Of a stretch of 64,000 bases of DNA, positions 26,300 through 42,012 are shown in pieces. The notes below the pieces were generated by a model. The model was given only the letters and a program-made list of their open reading frames with translations, had not been told where the DNA came from and ran no database searches. The translations under genes were made by a program, and so were the position numbers. The DNA comes from an uncultured Poribacteria bacterium (lineage in GTDB: Bacteria > Poribacteria > WGA-4E > WGA-3G), in NCBI GenBank assembly GCA_951812525.1, contig OX638316.1, positions 1,376,506 to 1,440,505 of the forward strand, in the 5' to 3' direction. Numbering within the stretch: position 1 is the stretch's first letter; every line of letters begins with the position of its first letter.

Positions 26300-27718
26300 A
26301 TGTTAATGACGCTAATTCAGAAAGAGATTATGCACCATATTCTCAGCGTCCGATTCGTCGCGCTCCTTCTGATGTGTTTGTTACTCATCCCACTCACCCT
26401 TTCTATCAATTATCAAAATTATCGTCAAAATCTCGTTGACTATCAAGAAGCCGTCAAACTCGCAAACCTCGAAGAGAAGACAGTAAACCCAAAGATGCCG
26501 CTGGAACCAGAGATTGAAGTTTCCAAACTCTTTCTCAAACCAACGCCGATGAGCGTCTTTGCAAACGGATTAGGGGACGCATTGCCAAGTTACCTTGGGA
26601 TGACTCGCAATGGGATTATCCAAGGGGCTTCAACGTTAGCCTCAGATTCTCTTGCCTACCTCTTAGGACACCTCGACTTTCTTTTTCTTGTAGGTACTGT
26701 TTTCAGTTTGCTCGCGCTGCTGTTTACCTTCGATGCAGTTGCCGGGGAGCGGGAAGCAGGCACGCTGCGGATCACCTTAGCAAACTCCCTGCCACGTGAT
26801 CTCTTTTTGTGGAGCAAACTGATCGGCGGATATTTGGTGTTTGTTGTTCCGTTCTTGGTGTCGCTTCTATTCGGTTTACTCGTTCTCGTCTGGCAAGGCT
26901 TTCCGCTTGGTGAACCCGAAATTTTTCCACGAATCCTTAGCCTTACCCTCGTTTCGCTACTCTACATCGCAGTTTTCTTTGCAATAGGGACGGTAATTTC
27001 CACCTACTTAGACAATGCCAAGACAGCACTCATCGTTGTATTTACTTTCTGGGTGTTTGCCGTGCTGATTACGCCACGCGTTGGGTTTCTCGCAGCGAAA
27101 TTCATTTCACAGACACAAACTTCGCAGAGTATTTATCTCGAAAAGACAGCACTTCGCGAAAATATCAACATAGAACTCGAAGAGAAAAAAAGGAAGATAC
27201 ACCAAGAACTCTGGAAAAATCGTCCTCAATCTTCTTTAGAAGAACAGATAGCAATCGGAAAAGAGATGGATGAACAGATGAAACCTATTGAAGAGGAACT
27301 TCGGCAGGAATTCAAGGAGCATGCTGACGAAATAGACAGGCGTTACAAGCGTGACAAAGCGCGGCAAGAAGGCGTAGGTGAAACCCTCTCCCGAATCACA
27401 CCGACATCTTCCCTAACCTATCTCGCTACAAATTTAACACAAACCGGAAAACGAAAAAGAAGCAACTACTTCCAAGCGGGCGAACGCTATTATGATGCCC
27501 TTCATGCAGATTTGTTCAGTAAAATTGTAGATCACGCCACCACAAGAATGTTCAATCCAGAAACTGACATTGTCAAAATCACGCAGCCACCCCCTTTGGA
27601 AATCCCAACCTTAGCGGAAACACTCCGTCAATCGGTAGTGGATATACTGCTGCTCTGCTTCTTTGCGGTTGCGTTGACAACCGTGTCATTTTTGAAATTC
27701 TTCCGTTCCGACATTTGA
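26300..27718 (+). CDS. ABC-2 type transporter permease (first of three)
   Basis: 472 residues, AAGGA upstream of ATG. One N-terminal span (about 15-37), a large extracytoplasmic segment, then a cluster of spans about 125-265, and a final span about 445-465. The first cytoplasmic motif G-E-R-E-A-G-T-L-R-I-T-L-A-N-S-L-P-R-D (about 148-166) is shared with the permeases at 35870 and 37329. The second half has a long charged coiled-coil-like region (about 285-380). It belongs to the ABC-2/DUF3526-like group, which moves substrates outward with an ATPase partner; the only ATPase in the region is at 31295. Substrate unknown. Confidence 0.83.
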   Translation: MLMTLIQKEIMHHILSVRFVALLLMCLLLIPLTLSINYQNYRQNLVDYQEAVKLANLEEKTVNPKMPLEPEIEVSKLFLKPTPMSVFANGLGDALPSYLGMTRNGIIQGASTLASDSLAYLLGHLDFLFLVGTVFSLLALLFTFDAVAGEREAGTLRITLANSLPRDLFLWSKLIGGYLVFVVPFLVSLLFGLLVLVWQGFPLGEPEIFPRILSLTLVSLLYIAVFFAIGTVISTYLDNAKTALIVVFTFWVFAVLITPRVGFLAAKFISQTQTSQSIYLEKTALRENINIELEEKKRKIHQELWKNRPQSSLEEQIAIGKEMDEQMKPIEEELRQEFKEHADEIDRRYKRDKARQEGVGETLSRITPTSSLTYLATNLTQTGKRKRSNYFQAGERYYDALHADLFSKIVDHATTRMFNPETDIVKITQPPPLEIPTLAETLRQSVVDILLLCFFAVALTTVSFLKFFRSDI

Positions 27719-27961: not shown

Positions 27962-29200
27962 ATGCATAAGAAATGGGTTGTTTACAAAAGTATTTCACTC
28001 TTTTTATTTTTGGTACTGCTCCTTCCTGGGTGTGCTATACCTACTTATATGGGTGGCACCAAGAAGATCCGCCTTACGTTAGAAGGTCCAGAACAGATTC
28101 CGGTTCAGGCATCTATCGTGCCAATTGCGTTTCCTACTGGCGAGTTCCTTAAATGGAAATCCCTCACAAATCTAAAAGAGGTAGAAAAAGAAAAAGATCA
28201 TCCTATGTCGGTATTTCAGGGTTTTCTCCCTAAAAAATCCGTCTCCGTCGGCGAGGCGTGGAAAATTGATCGTGAAGCTGCACTTCAATTGCTCAAGCAA
28301 CTTGCTGAGAAACCCCAATTTGAAATGCACATCAGTCCTGGCACTATGAAGCTCCAGATCGGTAGCAAAACTTTCAGGAGAGGGGGTGACACAGATGGAT
28401 TGTGGGCATTGCTTCGCGCATACGACGACGCTTACGCCGAAATTGTCTTCCGCATTCACGCCGAGTTTGTCTTGGAAGATGGCTTTTTTACACCCTCACA
28501 ATTTGCAGGACGTCTTATTCTCGACAGACACTCGCAAGAATTAACTTACTTTGAGATGCTTGTCCCACCAAGCACGCTTAACTTTGATGTCAATTGGAAA
28601 CTTTCAGATATACGTGTTATAACTAGCACTGGTGTTTCTCAAATTGAGATGACCGCTGGGAAAGATGTCACCACAGAGATTGCTTTCTTAGAAGAAATCT
28701 CTGTGAAACAGGCAGAACTCACACTCGCAAGACGGTTTTACAAAGCACAAGAAATTGAATGGGTGCCTTTGGGTGAGGCAGTAGAAAAAGCAAGATTGCT
28801 GGACCGTCCCATTCATGTTGTTTCAGCGGACGGCACCTTTATGGATGAGTCGTGCTGAGGCAGTGGGAAATCCCTGAGGGCAGTTGTCCTCTCCGATAAG
28901 AAAACAATCAAGTATCTGAACGCTAATTTTGTTAATGTCTGGGTTTTAAATCGCGATCTCAAACGCCACCGAGATGCCAAAAGTATTGACGGCATCTCAC
29001 CTTTGGAACGGACAATCATTAGTGGATGGAATAAGGGATCTCCGGTAGATTGTCAAGTGATTTCAAAAGACTTAAAACTGCTTATGAGCCTACCTTTTAA
29101 CGACTTTATGAGCAAATCTGCCTCCTCGTTTTATTCTAAAGGCGGAAGTCTCTATCGAGACATTTTGAAAGGTTCATTAGTAGGAGGAAATCCGGAATAG
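27962..29200 (+). CDS. Candidate selenocysteine-containing thioredoxin-like lipoprotein
   Basis: The frame runs 298 codons to a TGA at 28856 and continues in the same frame with protein-like sequence for 113 more codons to TAG 29198, giving 412 residues if TGA is read as selenocysteine (U299). The N-terminus is a lipoprotein signal (lipobox L-P-G-C). The segment around the TGA resembles a thioredoxin-like fold: L-G-E-A-V-E-K-A, R-P-I-H-V-V-S-A-D-G, then S-C-U-G-S-G-K-S-L-R, V-V-L-S-D-K, and L-N-A-N-F-V-N-V-W-V. The Cys-Sec pair falls where redox-active thiols are expected. A hairpin with SECIS-like geometry follows (28876-28891). Alternatives are a nonsense mutation or sequencing error. No Sec machinery genes are in the window. 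Confidence 0.7.
28876..28891 (+). promoter_or_regulatory. SECIS-like hairpin after the in-frame TGA
   Basis: GAGGGC (28876-28881), loop AGTT (28882-28885), GTCCTC (28886-28891): a 6-bp stem with one G-U pair. The apical loop starts 23 bases after the TGA and has G as its second base, which fits the published bacterial SECIS rules of spacing and loop guanine as I recall them. Confidence 0.55.
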
Positions 29201-29296
29201 ATGAATTCCTATCAGCGCCTACGCAAAATAACAGTGATGCTGAATAAGCCTTGGTTATTCCATGGATGACACCAACACCAACACAAGGAGCATCAA

Positions 29297-30016
29297 ATGA
29301 CTAAATCTAAGCGGTTAGTTGCTTTTCTGGTCTTTCCTCTCATATTTCTATCATTGGTTATCTTGGTCCTATTTATAGGAAAAATTGAAAACTCACAAAC
29401 GGATAGATCAGGTTTCACCGTTAATCCTACCGGACATTTAACAGTTGATCTGGAGTTTGGGACGATTAATATAGAGACCACAGACCAAGATCATATCAAT
29501 ATCACCACCACAAAGAAATGGAAAGCAAAGTTATCGGCATGGCAACCGAAGTTTGTCGAATGGATTAGTAAACTGCCGGGGGACTTTGAGATTACAACTA
29601 AAAATGGCGACTCGGACACCCAATCAGATATTCAAATTGAGGGAAAGTTCAAGCGTGGGCGAGAACATTGGCAAGACGGATTAAAGTGGTTGACAATTGA
29701 CCTGCGCGTGACAGTGCCGCGCCAATATAAGGTCACGCTCAAAACTGCCTCTTCCGGGGATATTCGCGCAGAAGTGACAACACAACCACAATACCCATGG
29801 ATTTTGAACACAGCCGAAAACGGAGAAATAGATGTAACGCTCCATCCAGATATCGCAGTTGACGTAGATGCCCAAACGCAAGGCAACATCTCAAGCGACT
29901 TTTCCATTCAATCTCACAGAAATGTCGAAAATATGTTAAAGGGGACGGTTAACGGCGGCGGACCGTTACTGAGATTGCGCGCCGATGCCGGTGAAATCCA
30001 CCTGAGGAGAAAGTAA
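29297..30016 (+). CDS. Membrane-anchored DUF4097-like beta-rich protein
   Basis: 239 residues, AAGGAG upstream. One N-terminal hydrophobic anchor (about residues 8-28, L-V-A-F-L-V-F-P-L-I-F) is followed by repeated short beta strands of the type seen in DUF4097 putative adhesins: L-T-V-D-L-E-F-G-T-I-N-I-E-T, V-T-L-K-T-A-S-S-G-D-I-R-A-E, L-N-T-A-E-N-G-E-I-D-V-T and L-R-A-D-A-G-E-I-H-L. These form a right-handed beta-solenoid-like sheet outside the membrane. It sits between the candidate selenoprotein and the paralogue B gene inside the exporter region. Function unknown. Confidence 0.75.
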   Translation: MTKSKRLVAFLVFPLIFLSLVILVLFIGKIENSQTDRSGFTVNPTGHLTVDLEFGTINIETTDQDHINITTTKKWKAKLSAWQPKFVEWISKLPGDFEITTKNGDSDTQSDIQIEGKFKRGREHWQDGLKWLTIDLRVTVPRQYKVTLKTASSGDIRAEVTTQPQYPWILNTAENGEIDVTLHPDIAVDVDAQTQGNISSDFSIQSHRNVENMLKGTVNGGGPLLRLRADAGEIHLRRK

Positions 30017-31294: not shown

Positions 31295-32029
31295 ATGTTA
31301 GAAACCCGCGACCTCACGAAAGTCTATAACGAAAACGTTTTAGCCGTCAACAATTTGAATCTGAAAGTAGAAGATGGCGAAATTTATGTCGTCCTCGGTG
31401 CAAACGGTGCCGGGAAAAGTACGACAATCTCCATGCTCCTGAACTTCATCGAACCCACAAGTGGCACCGCACTCGTAGATGATATCGAGATCCCGAAGTT
31501 TCCACTGGAGGCAAAAAAGCATCTCGCCTACGTCTCAGAGAACGTGGAACTCTATCGTAACTTCACGGCGCGGCAAAACCTCTCCTTTTTCGCAAAACTC
31601 GGCGGACGCAAGAAAGTATCAAACGCCGAATTAGATGCGACCCTCGGACGCGTGGGTTTACCGGAAGAAGCGTTCACGCGACGCGTTAAGACCTTCTCCA
31701 AAGGGATGCGCCAACGTCTCGGTATCGCCATCGCAATTATGAAAAACGCACAAGCCGTCCTGCTCGATGAGCCAACTTCGGGCTTGGATCCGAAGGGCGG
31801 TGCTGATTTCCTGAACCTACTACGCCAACTCAAAGAGGAAGAGAAAGCCATCTTCATGTCCACACACGACATCTTCCGAGCAAAGGAGATCGCTGATAGA
31901 ATCGGTATCCTCGTACAAGGCAATCTGGAGCGTGAATTGACGCGCGAAGAGATTCAAGAAGAGGATCTTGAGGCACTGTACCTGAATTACGTTGCCGGAT
32001 ACGAATCCGAGGAAGACGCAACTGAGTAA
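31295..32029 (+). CDS. ABC transporter ATP-binding protein
   Basis: 244 residues, GTAGGAG upstream. All ATPase motifs are intact: Walker A G-A-N-G-A-G-K-S-T (about 36-44), Q-loop region Y-V-S-E-N, signature F-S-K-G-M-R-Q-R-L (about 135-143), Walker B A-V-L-L-D-E-P-T-S-G-L-D-P (about 155-167) and a switch histidine in S-T-H-D. It belongs to the CcmA/DRA exporter group that works with ABC-2 permeases. The only ATPase among three permeases, a NEW3-domain protein and a TolC-like channel, so it probably powers one or more of them. The next gene follows with at most about 110 bases of repeat between them. Confidence 0.92.
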   Translation: MLETRDLTKVYNENVLAVNNLNLKVEDGEIYVVLGANGAGKSTTISMLLNFIEPTSGTALVDDIEIPKFPLEAKKHLAYVSENVELYRNFTARQNLSFFAKLGGRKKVSNAELDATLGRVGLPEEAFTRRVKTFSKGMRQRLGIAIAIMKNAQAVLLDEPTSGLDPKGGADFLNLLRQLKEEEKAIFMSTHDIFRAKEIADRIGILVQGNLERELTREEIQEEDLEALYLNYVAGYESEEDATE

Positions 32030-35869: not shown

Positions 35870-37315
35870 CTATTTCACATCAGTTTTGAGAAAAGAAACC
35901 TGTGCCAAAATAAAGAACAGCAGATTAAACAACACCAACAAACCCACTTGGGATAACACACTCCGATATGAGATCTGCTCTGTGAACACCGGGACTCCCG
36001 CTGGATCCACCGGTTTCTGAGACAAGCCTTCCTTTACAGGATAAATATGTAGGCTCTCTGGATCGCCCCGATCCTCTGTCTTAACGAAGTCTATGAACGT
36101 CTGTCGATAACGGCGTGCTTGTTTAACGAAATTCATATAACCGACGATACTCGTGTTTGCAAGACCCTCCATCGCATACTGAAAAGTGGCTATCGGAGAG
36201 ATCTGAGTGAGGTCACGGGCAAGTTGCACCTGTTGAAGCTGCCGGTCGATATGTCCATCGGCAATCTGTGTCTCCGTGTCACTGATTTCTGTGAAGTACG
36301 TCGCCCAGAGGCGTGCGACGGAGGGTCTCTCAATGGCAGGTGATTTTTTTAACTTCGGGGACGGTCCTTCTCGCCATTCATCATCAATTTGGTCCAATTG
36401 CGCCCGTCTTTGCATTGAAATCTCGTCAACCGATGGAATCGGATTCAGATTGCTGACAAAAATACCAAGCAGACTCGGAAAGACAAACGCCAAGCAGACC
36501 CAAGTTAATAGGAGCCACACTAAACTTGTAATGGCGTTCGAGACACGACTTGAGAAAAGCAATCCGAGAAAAATAAAAATAGAAATGTGTAACCCAAATA
36601 GTCCGACTATACCCAAAATTCTCAACCAATCACCCGAGTTAAATGGAATATTTCCAACCAAGAGAATAATCAATAGGTTCATCAGGATACCGATGATAAG
36701 TGGCACCATGAGGGTCACAAATGCCCCAAGATATTTGCCCAACAATACCTGTCCACGCGAAACCGTGTTCGACATAATTAAGCTAAGTGTGCCGCGCGTC
36801 CGTTCCCCAGCAATACCATCGAAAGTGAACAAAATCGCAAAGAAACTCATCAGCACGCCGATGAAAACCCAGTTAATTTTGATATATCTCGTCGAGTTGC
36901 TACCAGCAGGCATTATCTGATACTCTAACTTCAATGGATGTCGCCACGCGTAATCTTCATCTTCAACACCGCTACTGCGACTGATATTCCCGTCGCTTCT
37001 CATCTTAATAGCGCGCGATACCACTTCATCAACGCCACCGGCACAGAATATCAAACGGCTGGGACGTTTCGGAATGTCCCCAGGTCCCCGCAGTGCCAAC
37101 TCCGCTAAACTCATATCCGCTTGCTCTTTAATATGCTTTCTATTTTGCTCTACCTGTCGGTTATAGGCATCAATCTGCGTGGTATAACCATTATCGCCGA
37201 GGCTATATATCAGCGCATTCGCCATAAACAAAACAGGTAAAAGAATTATCATCAAGGCAAATCGGAGCGTCGTGAGATTGTGGTGTATCTCTTTCGTCGC
37301 AATGTGCAAAATCAT
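35870..37315 (-). CDS. ABC-2 type transporter permease (second of three)
   Basis: 481 residues. N-terminal span (about 15-38), a long extracytoplasmic loop, a core of spans about 150-290 and a final span about 455-475. The cytoplasmic motif F-T-F-D-G-I-A-G-E-R-T-R-G-T-L-S-L-I matches the other two permeases. Encoded 13 bases downstream of the third permease on the minus strand, so the two are an operon and may form a heterodimer. Convergent with the TolC-like gene. Substrate unknown. Confidence 0.82.
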   Translation of the reverse strand: MILHIATKEIHHNLTTLRFALMIILLPVLFMANALIYSLGDNGYTTQIDAYNRQVEQNRKHIKEQADMSLAELALRGPGDIPKRPSRLIFCAGGVDEVVSRAIKMRSDGNISRSSGVEDEDYAWRHPLKLEYQIMPAGSNSTRYIKINWVFIGVLMSFFAILFTFDGIAGERTRGTLSLIMSNTVSRGQVLLGKYLGAFVTLMVPLIIGILMNLLIILLVGNIPFNSGDWLRILGIVGLFGLHISIFIFLGLLFSSRVSNAITSLVWLLLTWVCLAFVFPSLLGIFVSNLNPIPSVDEISMQRRAQLDQIDDEWREGPSPKLKKSPAIERPSVARLWATYFTEISDTETQIADGHIDRQLQQVQLARDLTQISPIATFQYAMEGLANTSIVGYMNFVKQARRYRQTFIDFVKTEDRGDPESLHIYPVKEGLSQKPVDPAGVPVFTEQISYRSVLSQVGLLVLFNLLFFILAQVSFLKTDVK

Positions 37316-37328
37316 CTGTGTGCCTCTT

Positions 37329-38852
37329 CTAACTCATATCATATCGCAGGAAGGATACATAAGCCGTCATGATTAGGACAATATTCCACGCCAATAATAT
37401 CAAAATATCTACTGATGCATCGGAGAAACTCTCGGAAAGCGAAAGTCGCCGATGTTGGAAAACGGGCAGGTCTTCTAATTCTGCCGTACCCTTGTCTGTG
37501 GAAAACCACGCCCGCGAAGAAAACGCCTCTTTATCTTTCAGATATTCAACAATCTCACGTTTGTAGGCTCTGGCACTCTCAATAAAATCGTTATAACGCT
37601 GCCGATCAGTCCCCGCCATGGCACCAGCAGCAAAGTGATATACATCCGCGAACGAGATACGAGAGAGTGCGTCTGCGAACTTAGCATTCCTCTCTTGTTC
37701 CTCCGCAGGCTTATTGAGAATCTCTTCCGTCTTATCCGCATATTCGACCCGAAGCTGCTCTTGATAGCCTAAAATTTCTTGGAAGATGGTAGTATCCGCC
37801 TTGTCGATATTTGTGACCCTATAACGTTCTATTATGAAATAGCCACCAGACATAGAACTCGTGCCCATCCCAGTTGAATTCGTCCCAGGTTCCCAAGAAA
37901 TTGACCCTTGCAAATCTTCGTAGCCTCTCTGCTTGATATAGGCATCCCGTTCATTCTTGAACTGATCCCAAACCTCAAAGGCGGGTTGGAGAACCTGGAA
38001 ATTAGGTTCCGACTGACGGGGTGAGAATTTATCCACCGCAAACGTTACCACATTTGAATGAACACTCGTCAGAATCACCCAGATAAACATCGAAAGGATT
38101 AAAGTTGTTGCCGCTTCCTTCGTCCAAACTGATAGAACAAGCCCTAAAAGATACCACGTTGACACATACAACAGCGAAACCCCGAAGATCAGCACAATAT
38201 GCGCAACAGCATTTCCATCAAAGTCGGTAACCGGAGAAGAGACAGCGATGAGTAGTGCCACGATTAAGCTCACCAAAACAATTGGAAACAGCGACAGCAT
38301 CCCGCCGAGGTATTTCCCCAAAACGACTGTGTCCCTCGGTATTGAATTAGATAACACGAGTTTCAAGGTGCCGTCCTCTCTCTCCCCTGAAATTGTGTTG
38401 TAAGCGAACAGGATCGCCAACGCGCTGAGCACGATTTTGAAAATGAAAACTACATCAACAGTCAGGAACATCGCAAGGAAGGGGTTGTCTGAACCCCGCT
38501 TCTGCGTCGGTGCCTCCCATATTGGGAACGGGAGTTCAAAGACAGGTTTTCCCAATTCAACGGTGACCGTATTTGCCCCGTCATTCTCCGACCCAACGTT
38601 AAAGATGCTAAGAGGGTTAGGCTTTCGGTGTGCTTTCGGTTTGATGTTGACATAGAGATCCCACTCCTGTGCCTCTATCTCTGCTTCCCGTACGGCGGTG
38701 TTATATCCCGCCAATCGTTTCTCGTAATCGTCCACCTGAACGAAAACGGCAACAGCCGTTGAGAGGACACACACAACAAATCCAATCATGAATCTGGAGG
38801 TCAACACATTTGAGACGAACTCCCGTTGTATAACAAGCCAAAGTGTATGCAT
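37329..38852 (-). CDS. ABC-2 type transporter permease (third of three)
   Basis: 507 residues. N-terminal span (about 20-40), extracytoplasmic domain about 45-135, spans in about 135-290, a second large soluble segment and a terminal span about 480-500. The motif F-A-Y-N-T-I-S-G-E-R-E-D-G-T-L-K-L-V-L-S-N-S-I-P-R has its counterparts at 26300 and 35870. First gene of a two-permease operon that has no ATPase of its own, so it may depend on the ATPase at 31295 or on one outside the window. Confidence 0.82.
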   Translation of the reverse strand: MHTLWLVIQREFVSNVLTSRFMIGFVVCVLSTAVAVFVQVDDYEKRLAGYNTAVREAEIEAQEWDLYVNIKPKAHRKPNPLSIFNVGSENDGANTVTVELGKPVFELPFPIWEAPTQKRGSDNPFLAMFLTVDVVFIFKIVLSALAILFAYNTISGEREDGTLKLVLSNSIPRDTVVLGKYLGGMLSLFPIVLVSLIVALLIAVSSPVTDFDGNAVAHIVLIFGVSLLYVSTWYLLGLVLSVWTKEAATTLILSMFIWVILTSVHSNVVTFAVDKFSPRQSEPNFQVLQPAFEVWDQFKNERDAYIKQRGYEDLQGSISWEPGTNSTGMGTSSMSGGYFIIERYRVTNIDKADTTIFQEILGYQEQLRVEYADKTEEILNKPAEEQERNAKFADALSRISFADVYHFAAGAMAGTDRQRYNDFIESARAYKREIVEYLKDKEAFSSRAWFSTDKGTAELEDLPVFQHRRLSLSESFSDASVDILILLAWNIVLIMTAYVSFLRYDMS

Positions 38853-38900: not shown

Positions 38901-41885
38901 TCACCCACTGTTGCACAATATTTCCGACCAGATGGAGCGTTGAAGGTCCGTCCTATCCCTTCTTCTCGTAATGGTAACATCAATAATATCCGACGCCAGA
39001 GGCGGTTCTTTGAACCTGCCACCCAATGTAACAGGCAGGATAACTTCTTTCCCTTCTCGTTCAAGGGTCAACTCCACCACATCCCCGAATTTCCAATCTC
39101 TGGCAACCTTTCTGATATCGCCAAACGTCTTCACCGCTATACCACTAACACCTATTAGACTGTCATCATCCTGAAACTGACGAGATCGATGGATGAACAT
39201 CCCGCCACCCGGTGGTCCACCAAATGAACCGATTCCAAGCATATCATGAATGATATACCCAAACCGTGGCAACCTTTCACCAAGGTCTATCGCGACATCC
39301 ATACCGGCGTCTTTAAGGTATTCCTCCAAGGGTAATTGCTCTGTTCCTGTTACATACTTGCTGAAGAACGGCTCAAAATCTCTACCGCTAATTTGGCTGA
39401 CGATCCTAATAACATCATCCATCGTGTACACGATATCAGTGAGACCAAACTCTCGATACATCTGCCGCATCACATCGTCTAAACTGTTTCGATTTTTTGT
39501 TAGATTACGAATCTGCAAATCCAAAGCAGCAGCGACTAAACGTCCGCCATCGTAGACAAGCTCTCGATTGGCTAATTTATCCTCACCAGCTTCCCGAATG
39601 GAGCGTTCTCCGTGTTGATACAGATACGATTCCCATGCAAGCTCAAGACTTCTGAGAAAATCGCTTTCAGAAATAAGTCCAAGGCGGGTACAGATAACGC
39701 TTGAATAATACTTGCTGAAACCTTCAGAGAACCAATACTCCTGTTCATCATCTGCAGTGAACCAGTACTCCTGCTCTTTAAAATGAATAGTTTTCCCATT
39801 CCAGATATAGCCAATCACATTTGCCACCAACGGTCCCCAAAAATTTCTTCTCGCTTCGTCTAATGTACCACCCACCAAAGCAGTGATGCTGCTTCTTGAT
39901 GCACCACCGCTGCGGTATTCTTCCTCACCATAAGGATTCGCGACAAATAGCATCCTGCCTATCGGGGTCCCACCAAATACGTCTGAATACCCATGAAGAA
40001 TTGCCTCAATAGCAGACGCTACCTCATCCATAGACGCTTTAAAGCGTCCACCCAGAGCAAGCACAACCTCTGCCTCTCCTGAGCTTACCAGACGCTCATA
40101 ATGCTCGCCAAGTACGAGATACGCATACATTAAATCGTCTTTATCTTTGCAAACAAAACGGTGTCCTTCGGATCCAATCCGTTCCCAAGGCGTTGACACA
40201 TACCAATTATCAGGCACATCAACACACAGTTCGATATCGTCCACCTCACCAACAATAAACAGCGCATACCCGGGCCAGAAAATACAGTCTTCTTGGGCAT
40301 ACGGTGCCTCGTCCCTACCAAATGGCCAATCTCGCGCATCATGATCCAGCAATACTTTATAGTGCAGCGTCACAGGCGACGCATCACTCGCTTCAACTAC
40401 CCACTGTGTCTTGTCAATCTCTTCTACAACCAACGTTTCACCCTTAGCACCGGTAGCTGTCAAGTCTTTAAGAGAACGGGCATATCCATCGTAGAGCCAT
40501 TCAGTCCCAAAACGACTCATGGATAAAAACAAAAACTTTCGATCTCCTTTTGTACCACTGCCAACCTTAGGTGTTAGGATACATTTAACATTCGCCACGC
40601 GCGGTGCATCAGCATCAATTTTGACCTCATACCTTGCCGACGCAAGTTCCATCGGACTATCAAGATCCTCAAGTTGACGGAAATTCCTAATGACCCGCCA
40701 CTCCTCAATAACCGCTTCATCCCGATAGGTGTTGTGCCACTTGTACGTCCACTGCGCGCCTATCTGGGTAGGAAAGTACGTTTCCTCTCCCCGAATCGGC
40801 ATTTCATATTCAACCACCTCGGCTTCAGTAACCACGCCGTTGGAATGTTCATAGCGCATCTTCACAAGTCCAATACCTTTAGCAAACCACAGATAACGCG
40901 TGCCGTTTGCAAGAGCACTTCGCAATTCAGCATCGGTATCTTTTACATCAGCGTCCGTAAAAACAGTTTTATGCTTCAGACACGCCGAGAAAGTGCCTGC
41001 AGATACCTCTACTGTTTCATAACCCTCCAAAGTTGCCATCGCTTGTGATTTCCAACCACCTTCTTGTTCCCAAGAACCACTATCAACTAATGGAAATTTT
41101 AAGAGCTCAATCCTACCGCGCGTAAGATAATGCAGCAACATGTACATCGGCGATGGATCGCCATCACCATGTCCTCTTGTGTGAAAACCAGAAGATGTGA
41201 AAACCTTACAAGTTTGGTTGAAGTTAAAACAACCTTCTGCTAAATGCTCACCTGTTTCTGTTGCTGCAGTCGTCTGAATGTCAACGCGGCGCGGTTCGCT
41301 CTTTAACAAATTCGGACCCAAGTTTTCCCGAAGCATCGACTCCTCCTTTTCCAACCGCTTCCGTGCACGATATAGGCGACTTTTCACTGTATTCAGCGAT
41401 ACGTCCAAACGTGCACTCATCTCTTCACACGTCAAGCCTTTATAATAGTGCAACACCATCACAGAACGTTCACCAACTGGTAGCTTTTGGAGGAGGTATT
41501 CTACAACTTCCCGCAGCCCATCCGATGACGCTTGCGTCTGCTCCTCTTCAAGATATTGCGTATAGAACACCCGCTCTAACTCGGCTTTTGGCATTGCATC
41601 CAGGGACTGCATCGTAATCGGTCTCTTTCGCAACCACTCAACACACCGGCGCTTCGCTATTACATACAGCCATCCTAAAAAACGATTGGGATCTTTTAAA
41701 CTCGGAAGCGACTTAAAGGCTTGGATGAAGGTGTCCTGCGCAATTTCTTGTGCCGCGTGAAAATCACGGATTTCTCGCCATGCGAGCGAATGAATCCACT
41801 TCTGGTGCCTTTCCACCAGCGCAGTGAACGCACTTTCATCACCCGATAAGATGCGTTGAATCAGATCAACATCTTCGTTTTTCAC
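38901..41885 (-). CDS. ECF sigma factor fused to an inactive M61-peptidase-like domain and PDZ-like domain
   Basis: 994 residues, GTG start with GGAGG upstream. Residues about 5-85 are sigma region 2 (A-A-Q-E-I-A-Q-D-T-F-I-Q-A-F, G-W-L-Y-V-I-A-K-R-R) and about 125-190 sigma region 4 (L-P-V-G-E-R-S-V-M-V, V-S-L-N-T-V-K-S-R-L-Y-R-A). Residues about 220-375 resemble a lipoprotein-type beta domain (Y-L-W-F-A-K-G-I-G-L-V-K). Residues about 560-800 match glycyl-aminopeptidase M61, but the HEXXH site reads N-V-I-G-Y (about 688-692) while W-F-S-E-G-F is kept. A PDZ-like domain spans about 860-965 (I-G-V-S-G-I-A-V-K-T). No membrane span joins the parts. The dead peptidase probably senses a ligand or peptide for the sigma domain. 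An ECF-type promoter precedes it. Confidence 0.85.
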   Translation of the reverse strand: MKNEDVDLIQRILSGDESAFTALVERHQKWIHSLAWREIRDFHAAQEIAQDTFIQAFKSLPSLKDPNRFLGWLYVIAKRRCVEWLRKRPITMQSLDAMPKAELERVFYTQYLEEEQTQASSDGLREVVEYLLQKLPVGERSVMVLHYYKGLTCEEMSARLDVSLNTVKSRLYRARKRLEKEESMLRENLGPNLLKSEPRRVDIQTTAATETGEHLAEGCFNFNQTCKVFTSSGFHTRGHGDGDPSPMYMLLHYLTRGRIELLKFPLVDSGSWEQEGGWKSQAMATLEGYETVEVSAGTFSACLKHKTVFTDADVKDTDAELRSALANGTRYLWFAKGIGLVKMRYEHSNGVVTEAEVVEYEMPIRGEETYFPTQIGAQWTYKWHNTYRDEAVIEEWRVIRNFRQLEDLDSPMELASARYEVKIDADAPRVANVKCILTPKVGSGTKGDRKFLFLSMSRFGTEWLYDGYARSLKDLTATGAKGETLVVEEIDKTQWVVEASDASPVTLHYKVLLDHDARDWPFGRDEAPYAQEDCIFWPGYALFIVGEVDDIELCVDVPDNWYVSTPWERIGSEGHRFVCKDKDDLMYAYLVLGEHYERLVSSGEAEVVLALGGRFKASMDEVASAIEAILHGYSDVFGGTPIGRMLFVANPYGEEEYRSGGASRSSITALVGGTLDEARRNFWGPLVANVIGYIWNGKTIHFKEQEYWFTADDEQEYWFSEGFSKYYSSVICTRLGLISESDFLRSLELAWESYLYQHGERSIREAGEDKLANRELVYDGGRLVAAALDLQIRNLTKNRNSLDDVMRQMYREFGLTDIVYTMDDVIRIVSQISGRDFEPFFSKYVTGTEQLPLEEYLKDAGMDVAIDLGERLPRFGYIIHDMLGIGSFGGPPGGGMFIHRSRQFQDDDSLIGVSGIAVKTFGDIRKVARDWKFGDVVELTLEREGKEVILPVTLGGRFKEPPLASDIIDVTITRRRDRTDLQRSIWSEILCNSG
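39728..39776. repeat. 30-base tandem duplication inside the sigma/M61 gene
   Basis: Two 19-base units with two differences lie 30 bases apart (39728-39746 and 39758-39776), producing E-Q-E-Y-W-F-T-A-D-D followed by E-Q-E-Y-W-F-S-E-G-F next to the conserved M61 glutamate motif. Confidence 0.7.
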
Positions 41886-41921
41886 GACCCACCTCCAAAG
41901 AATATTGCCTTATGATGTTAT

Positions 41922-41947
41922 GTCGCGTTTTAAAAGAAAAAGGTTGC
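41922..41947 (-). promoter_or_regulatory. ECF sigma-type promoter of the sigma/M61 fusion gene
   Basis: On the minus strand GCAACC (41947-41942), a 16-base spacer and CGAC (41925-41922). This matches the GCAAC-N16-CGTC style known for SigE-type ECF factors. The start codon lies about 37 bases downstream, so the gene may be autoregulated. Confidence 0.55.
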
Positions 41948-42012
41948 ATAAAATGAATTTTTACGCAATTTTTTTGTTGATGGGAAAAATGGGATATACT
42001 GAATGGTGGAGC

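Follow-up and report, generated by a model that had tools for sequence, protein, structure and literature searches.

Introduction

How a bacterial sigma factor might come to be regulated by a peptidase fold built into the same polypeptide is the question raised by one ORF in a 64,000-nucleotide stretch of DNA (hereafter, the window; contig OX638316.1, positions 1,376,506 to 1,440,505) from a sponge-associated Candidatus Poribacteria. At least 26 groups of ECF sigma factors carry N- or C-terminal extensions, among them SnoaL, TPR, WD40, Cys-rich or transmembrane (TM)/anti-sigma tails, and no M61 extension is described in the review that catalogs them (PMC8999054). Our literature searches returned nothing relevant on Poribacteria ECF factors or M61-sigma fusions, a review of pseudometallopeptidases mentions neither M61 nor sigma factors, and no pseudopeptidase was found in the literature searched that acts as a direct on-board regulator of a bacterial sigma factor. 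The original prediction, made from the letters alone, held that this ORF joins a sigma factor to a catalytically dead M61 peptidase and a PDZ-like domain without an intervening membrane span, and that it could be a one-component switch.

Results

Domain layout of the fusion

The ORF encodes 994 residues from a GTG start preceded by a GGAGG ribosome-binding site, and it contains no internal stops. Its features are as follows.

38901..41885, minus strand: ECF sigma factor, LolA/DUF3108-like barrel, pseudo-M61 and PDZ-like fusion (ORF, Pfam, structure model, orthologs)
41331..41885, minus strand: sigma domain, residues 1-185, regions 2 and 4 (Pfam; TIGR02937, 2.9e-25)
40677..41291, minus strand: beta-barrel (LolA/DUF3108-like), residues 199-403 (separate AF2 model, pLDDT 88.9; weak 3bk5/LolA/DUF1329/YmcC-like matches)
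39306..40553, minus strand: M61 N-terminal and catalytic-fold domains with HEXXH lost, residues about 445-860 (Pfam; 4fgm, 6e-27; Z 30.1)
39807..39821, minus strand: degenerate zinc motif N-V-I-G-Y, residues 689-693, at the place of HEXXH in active relatives (alignment with relatives)
39021..39305, minus strand: PDZ-like domain, residues about 861-955 (weak PDZ_2; M61 structure alignment reaching residue 992)

Sigma70_r2 (residues 23-88) and Sigma70_r4_2 (127-178) scored above their curated Pfam cut-offs, as did TIGR02937, and by domain content the protein is an ECF sigma factor. Peptidase_M61_N (463-586, 2.7e-9) and Peptidase_M61 (694-763, 5e-7) likewise exceeded the curated cut-offs, and matches to DUF3108_like (286-343, 0.0037) and PDZ_2 (902-953, 0.098) fell below them. 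A full-length AlphaFold2 model built with 51 relatives as input had a pLDDT of 79. Its residues 416-992 aligned by VIA-align with the M61 structures 4fgm (Z 30.1, 520 residues aligned, rmsd 5.6) and 8j9c (Z 25.5), and Foldseek and a sequence-profile search agreed on M61. Both the N-terminal domain and the catalytic fold of the family are thus present. Because that alignment extends to residue 992, the PDZ-like C-terminus is backed by fold rather than by sequence. For residues 199-403 we claim just a general barrel fold, since the LolA/DUF1329/YmcC-like matches are weak (Z 7-9) and no better than those to membrane barrels. Residues 185-195, between the sigma domain and the barrel, had a pLDDT below 50 and are probably a flexible linker.

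No TM segment was found in the fusion protein (hydropathy maximum, 1.1), and hydropathy profiles rule out a hidden membrane span both in this protein and in 17 of the 18 orthologs checked; in the exception (L059_3), the hydrophobic segment lies in a stop-to-stop stretch ahead of the true start. The intact ORF, Pfam, the model and hydropathy therefore bear out the predicted arrangement of sigma, M61-like and PDZ-like parts in a single ORF without a membrane span. The protein has the M61_N domain, catalytic fold and C-terminal PDZ-like domain of the M61 glycyl aminopeptidases (4fgm, 8j9c, 7xyo); unlike them, it lacks HEXXH and a secretion signal, and it carries a fused sigma factor and an extra N-terminal barrel. 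It also differs from ECF57, part of which has WD40-like repeats, in that there was no WD40 match at E values up to 1 and the fold is that of M61.

Distribution among Poribacteria

Among 84 Poribacteria genomes, those with a full-length ortholog of the fusion (about 68-81% identity) comprise most members of the window's genus and five from a second genus in its family; one of these genomes is a single-contig 5.8-Mb assembly. The occurrence of the orthologs in many independent assemblies, including that single contig, excludes the join of two genes by an assembly error or frameshift that would have undone the original prediction, and the in-frame C-terminal extension is conserved across them, as in ECF factors with C-terminal extensions. 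In other Poribacteria families, matches were limited to the sigma half or to distant M61 proteins; phyla beyond Poribacteria were covered by an exact-peptide scan alone, which detects close relatives only.

A lost active site in a conserved fold

The suggested replacement of HEXXH by N-V-I-G-Y was found at residues 689-693, and a survey of whether the loss is constant gave a uniform answer: HEXXH is kept in none of 29 distinct full-length fusions from Poribacteria, with the catalytic Glu and the second His replaced in every one (NVIGY, RLVCY, YMVSS, HVVGY, GVVCY and others), and is kept in 29 of 29 complete relatives outside the dead-fusion class, including the older sigma-TM-M61 form described below. 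Another six sequences without HEXXH turned out to be either truncated fragments of fusions or a fusion that lacks the barrel. Judged from these residues, the M61 part is a non-peptidase homologue of M61. The third ligand, Glu721 (WFSEGF) in the window protein, is also present in that protein's nearest ortholog and in the second genus; the other orthologs have Ala there.

In close pairs, dN/dS was about 0.11-0.24 for the dead catalytic domain and 0.04-0.19 for the sigma domain. This purifying selection suggests that the fold is maintained for a role other than hydrolysis. A separate departure from the solved M61 enzymes is seen at residues about 655-668, where GGVSGRS stands in place of a GGLEH-type Glu. 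No member of the Poribacterial M61 clade has that Glu, not even the active ones, and these may therefore be something other than aminopeptidases.

The predicted promoter and neighboring genes

The following features flank the fusion.

41920..41948, minus strand: predicted ECF-type promoter TGCAACCTT-N6-TTAAAA-NN-CGACAT, upstream of the fusion (ortholog conservation; 0 mismatches)
37329..38852, minus strand: ABC-2 permease (DUF3526 type), 48 nt downstream of the fusion (Pfam; linked in most relatives)
35870..37315, minus strand: second ABC-2 permease (DUF3526 type), same presumed operon (Pfam)
31295..32029, plus strand: ABC transporter ATPase, convergent neighbor and candidate permease partner (ABC_tran, 6.9e-31; same arrangement in L070)

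ECF promoters have an AAC/CGAC layout. The element ahead of the fusion, in full CATTTTATGCAACCTT-N-TTAAAA-NN-CGACATAA, is strongly conserved, being present in 16 of 17 aligned upstream regions, and its assignment as a promoter comes from position and conservation. The motif occurs once in the window with 0 mismatches, and shuffled sequences are expected to yield none even at three mismatches. A pattern search across the genus (38 genomes) gave 52 matches against 16 in a reversed control. An AAA(A/G) spacer element was present in 44 of the 52, of which 25 were the fusion's own promoter, 14 lay elsewhere in the fusion locus and 5 lay outside it; among fusion-less genomes of the genus, one of nine had a site with this spacer. 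Among the genes behind the extra sites in relatives are those for active M61, ABC-2 permeases, LamG-like proteins and esterase-like proteins with Big_5. Sigma paralogs of other classes have a different -10 element, CGTCAC, ahead of their own genes. Short sigma-barrel paralogs share the -35 element TGCAACCTT with the fusion and have CGTCAC at -10; these proteins of about 424 residues without M61 (L081-L083, L086) lie beside the same ABC-2 permease pairs. We infer that the sigma domain of the fusion reads the promoter ahead of its own gene. A large genome-wide regulon was not supported in the window's genome, where a loose pattern gave 3 matches against 10 in the reversed control and just the fusion's own promoter looks real; with the exact motif at one credible place there, the regulon may be a single operon. 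The predicted promoter would make the switch testable in a heterologous reporter although Poribacteria are uncultured.

The operon in the window likely consists of the fusion and the two permeases, a TolC-like gene is nearby, and no recognizable anti-sigma gene was seen among the neighbors examined. The exporter locus may extend beyond the sigma operon, as the plus strand ahead of the ATPase (26300-27718 and 27962-30016) also encodes a DUF4097-like protein, a lipoprotein-like protein and a third DUF3526-type ABC-2 permease.

Origin of the dead domain

A tree calculated from the M61 and PDZ segment, with the active-site columns left out, groups the dead fusions in a single clade (SH-aLRT 97), and the loss of HEXXH maps to one change. 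The sister of the dead fusions is a clade of 11 cytoplasmic paralogs that are free of sigma and TM segments and keep HEXXH. Outside both clades fall TM-anchored active forms, secreted two-barrel M61 proteins and two sigma-TM-active M61 proteins (L077_3 and L084_1). The last two (L077:3471-6788 and L084:427-3666) are sigma-TM-M61 fusions with HEXXH intact and appear, from their sequences, to place an active peptidase on the outer side of the membrane and the sigma factor attached to it on the inner side. In front of some TM-anchored active M61 genes lie degraded remains of a sigma region 4, its linker and a TM segment; the sigma-TM part of L077 matches the region upstream of L059_8 at 4.6e-15 in tblastn, spanning a stop codon. 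The region 4 remnant FLGVSANTIKSHLHQSQ* was seen directly before such genes in L060 (upstream of 11510) and L059 (upstream of 12982).

The tree and the sigma remnants together suggest the direction of change. The simplest path runs from a secreted M61 protein to a sigma-TM-M61 fusion with the enzyme outside, after which sigma was lost in some copies, and the TM and catalysis were lost in the window's lineage; a sigma-TM-active M61 protein with its peptidase outside the membrane is likely the ancestral form of the dead fusion. Candidate intermediates all survive in one bacterial family (secreted M61, sigma-TM-active M61, TM-M61 with decayed sigma, cytoplasmic sigma-free M61 and sigma-pseudo-M61), and the fusion family offers a traceable route along which a sigma factor may have gained a regulatory domain from an enzyme. 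The sigma-TM-active form, the barrel at 199-403, the promoter at 41920-41948 and the active sigma-free paralogs adjacent to fusions elsewhere had no place in the original prediction.

Discussion

We favor, at a rough probability of 0.55, the view that the protein is an autoregulated soluble ECF sigma factor whose pseudopeptidase extension serves as its cytoplasmic sensor or regulator, driving an envelope exporter locus. The sigma domain would read the TGCAACCTT-N14/15-CGACAT promoter ahead of its own gene and, in relatives, ahead of other genes of the locus, thereby controlling itself and an envelope operon that in the window includes the two ABC-2 permeases and in relatives would also take in active M61 peptidases and secreted lectin-, esterase- and DUF3108-like proteins. 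The barrel, pseudo-M61 and PDZ half would have started as an M61 peptidase, secreted or periplasmic, whose fold outlasted its catalytic activity, and it most likely binds a peptide, protein or lipid-like ligand that causes it to hold or release the sigma domain. Regulation by the extension, and its sign, are our inference, and the kind of ligand is guessed from the domains, with M61 and PDZ suggesting a peptide or protein and the barrel something lipid-like; the extension may even be passive. The one-component switch of the original prediction thus fits the conserved upstream ECF-type promoter, the absence of a recognizable anti-sigma gene nearby and the purifying selection on the dead domain, with the ligand and the switching step as its conjectural part. 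The fuller account, to which we give somewhat less than even odds, is that an ex-periplasmic peptidase, first joined to sigma through a membrane span, moved to the cytoplasm and was stripped of catalysis to become a peptide- or protein-sensing one-component sigma switch, in some genomes with a co-translated active sister peptidase as its balance.

Such sisters invite another explanation, in which the dead M61 half pairs with an active cytoplasmic paralog, or competes with it for substrate, and sigma activity reports on the peptidase or the substrate. The sigma-free, HEXXH-intact paralogs form the sister clade of the dead fusions and in other genomes lie directly downstream of them; in five loci the two frames overlap by 4 nt (ATGA type), which suggests coupled translation. 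However, the cytoplasmic paralog is missing from about half of the loci, and the genomes of the window and of G013 carry only the dead copy of this M61 family (in the window's genome, one match), which rules out an active paralog as a universal, obligatory partner; we regard this explanation as unlikely. Slightly less probable still is that the extension is an inhibitory tail cut off by a cellular protease, which would free the sigma domain as happens in IutY and has been suggested for ECF52-type factors. Regulated proteolysis has been established or put forward for ECF factors whose extensions are anti-sigma-like (PMC8999054), and the low-confidence linker is probably flexible, but the fusion contains neither a TM segment nor a zinc-finger anti-sigma domain, and purifying selection across an 800-residue folded tail exceeds what a removable tag would need. 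We consider it improbable, more so than either of these, that the C-terminal half merely shares a gene with the sigma domain and performs an unrelated binding function in the cytoplasm. The same half does occur sigma-free in tandem copies, but catalytic loss coincides exactly with the fused, TM-less state, and the barrel module alone recurs behind sigma domains beside ABC permease pairs (L081, L082, L083 and L086).

A soluble sensor or regulator, the reading we prefer, has its nearest likeness in ECF factors in which a soluble domain with a presumed regulatory role is fused behind regions 2 and 4, again with no dedicated anti-sigma seen nearby; those extensions are SnoaL-like, TPR, WD40 or Cys-rich, whereas that of the window protein is a barrel, pseudo-M61 and PDZ of about 800 residues (PMC8999054). 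The membrane-span sigma/anti-sigma fusions IutY/ECF243, ECF52 and ECF53 (PMC8999054) share its one-protein design and differ from it in their membrane span and zinc-finger anti-sigma domain. It is the Poribacterial sigma-TM-propeller and sigma-TM-M61 paralogs that resemble those fusions in layout. The window's genome encodes no fewer than a dozen ECF sigma paralogs in which a TM helix, at about residue 220-265, precedes propeller (BNR/sortilin-like), kelch or LRR domains (among L009-L020; e.g., L009:9535-12543, L014:5881-8010, L017:5869-7866 and L012:11862-14693), apparently a large family of membrane-tethered sigma factors with outer sensor domains.
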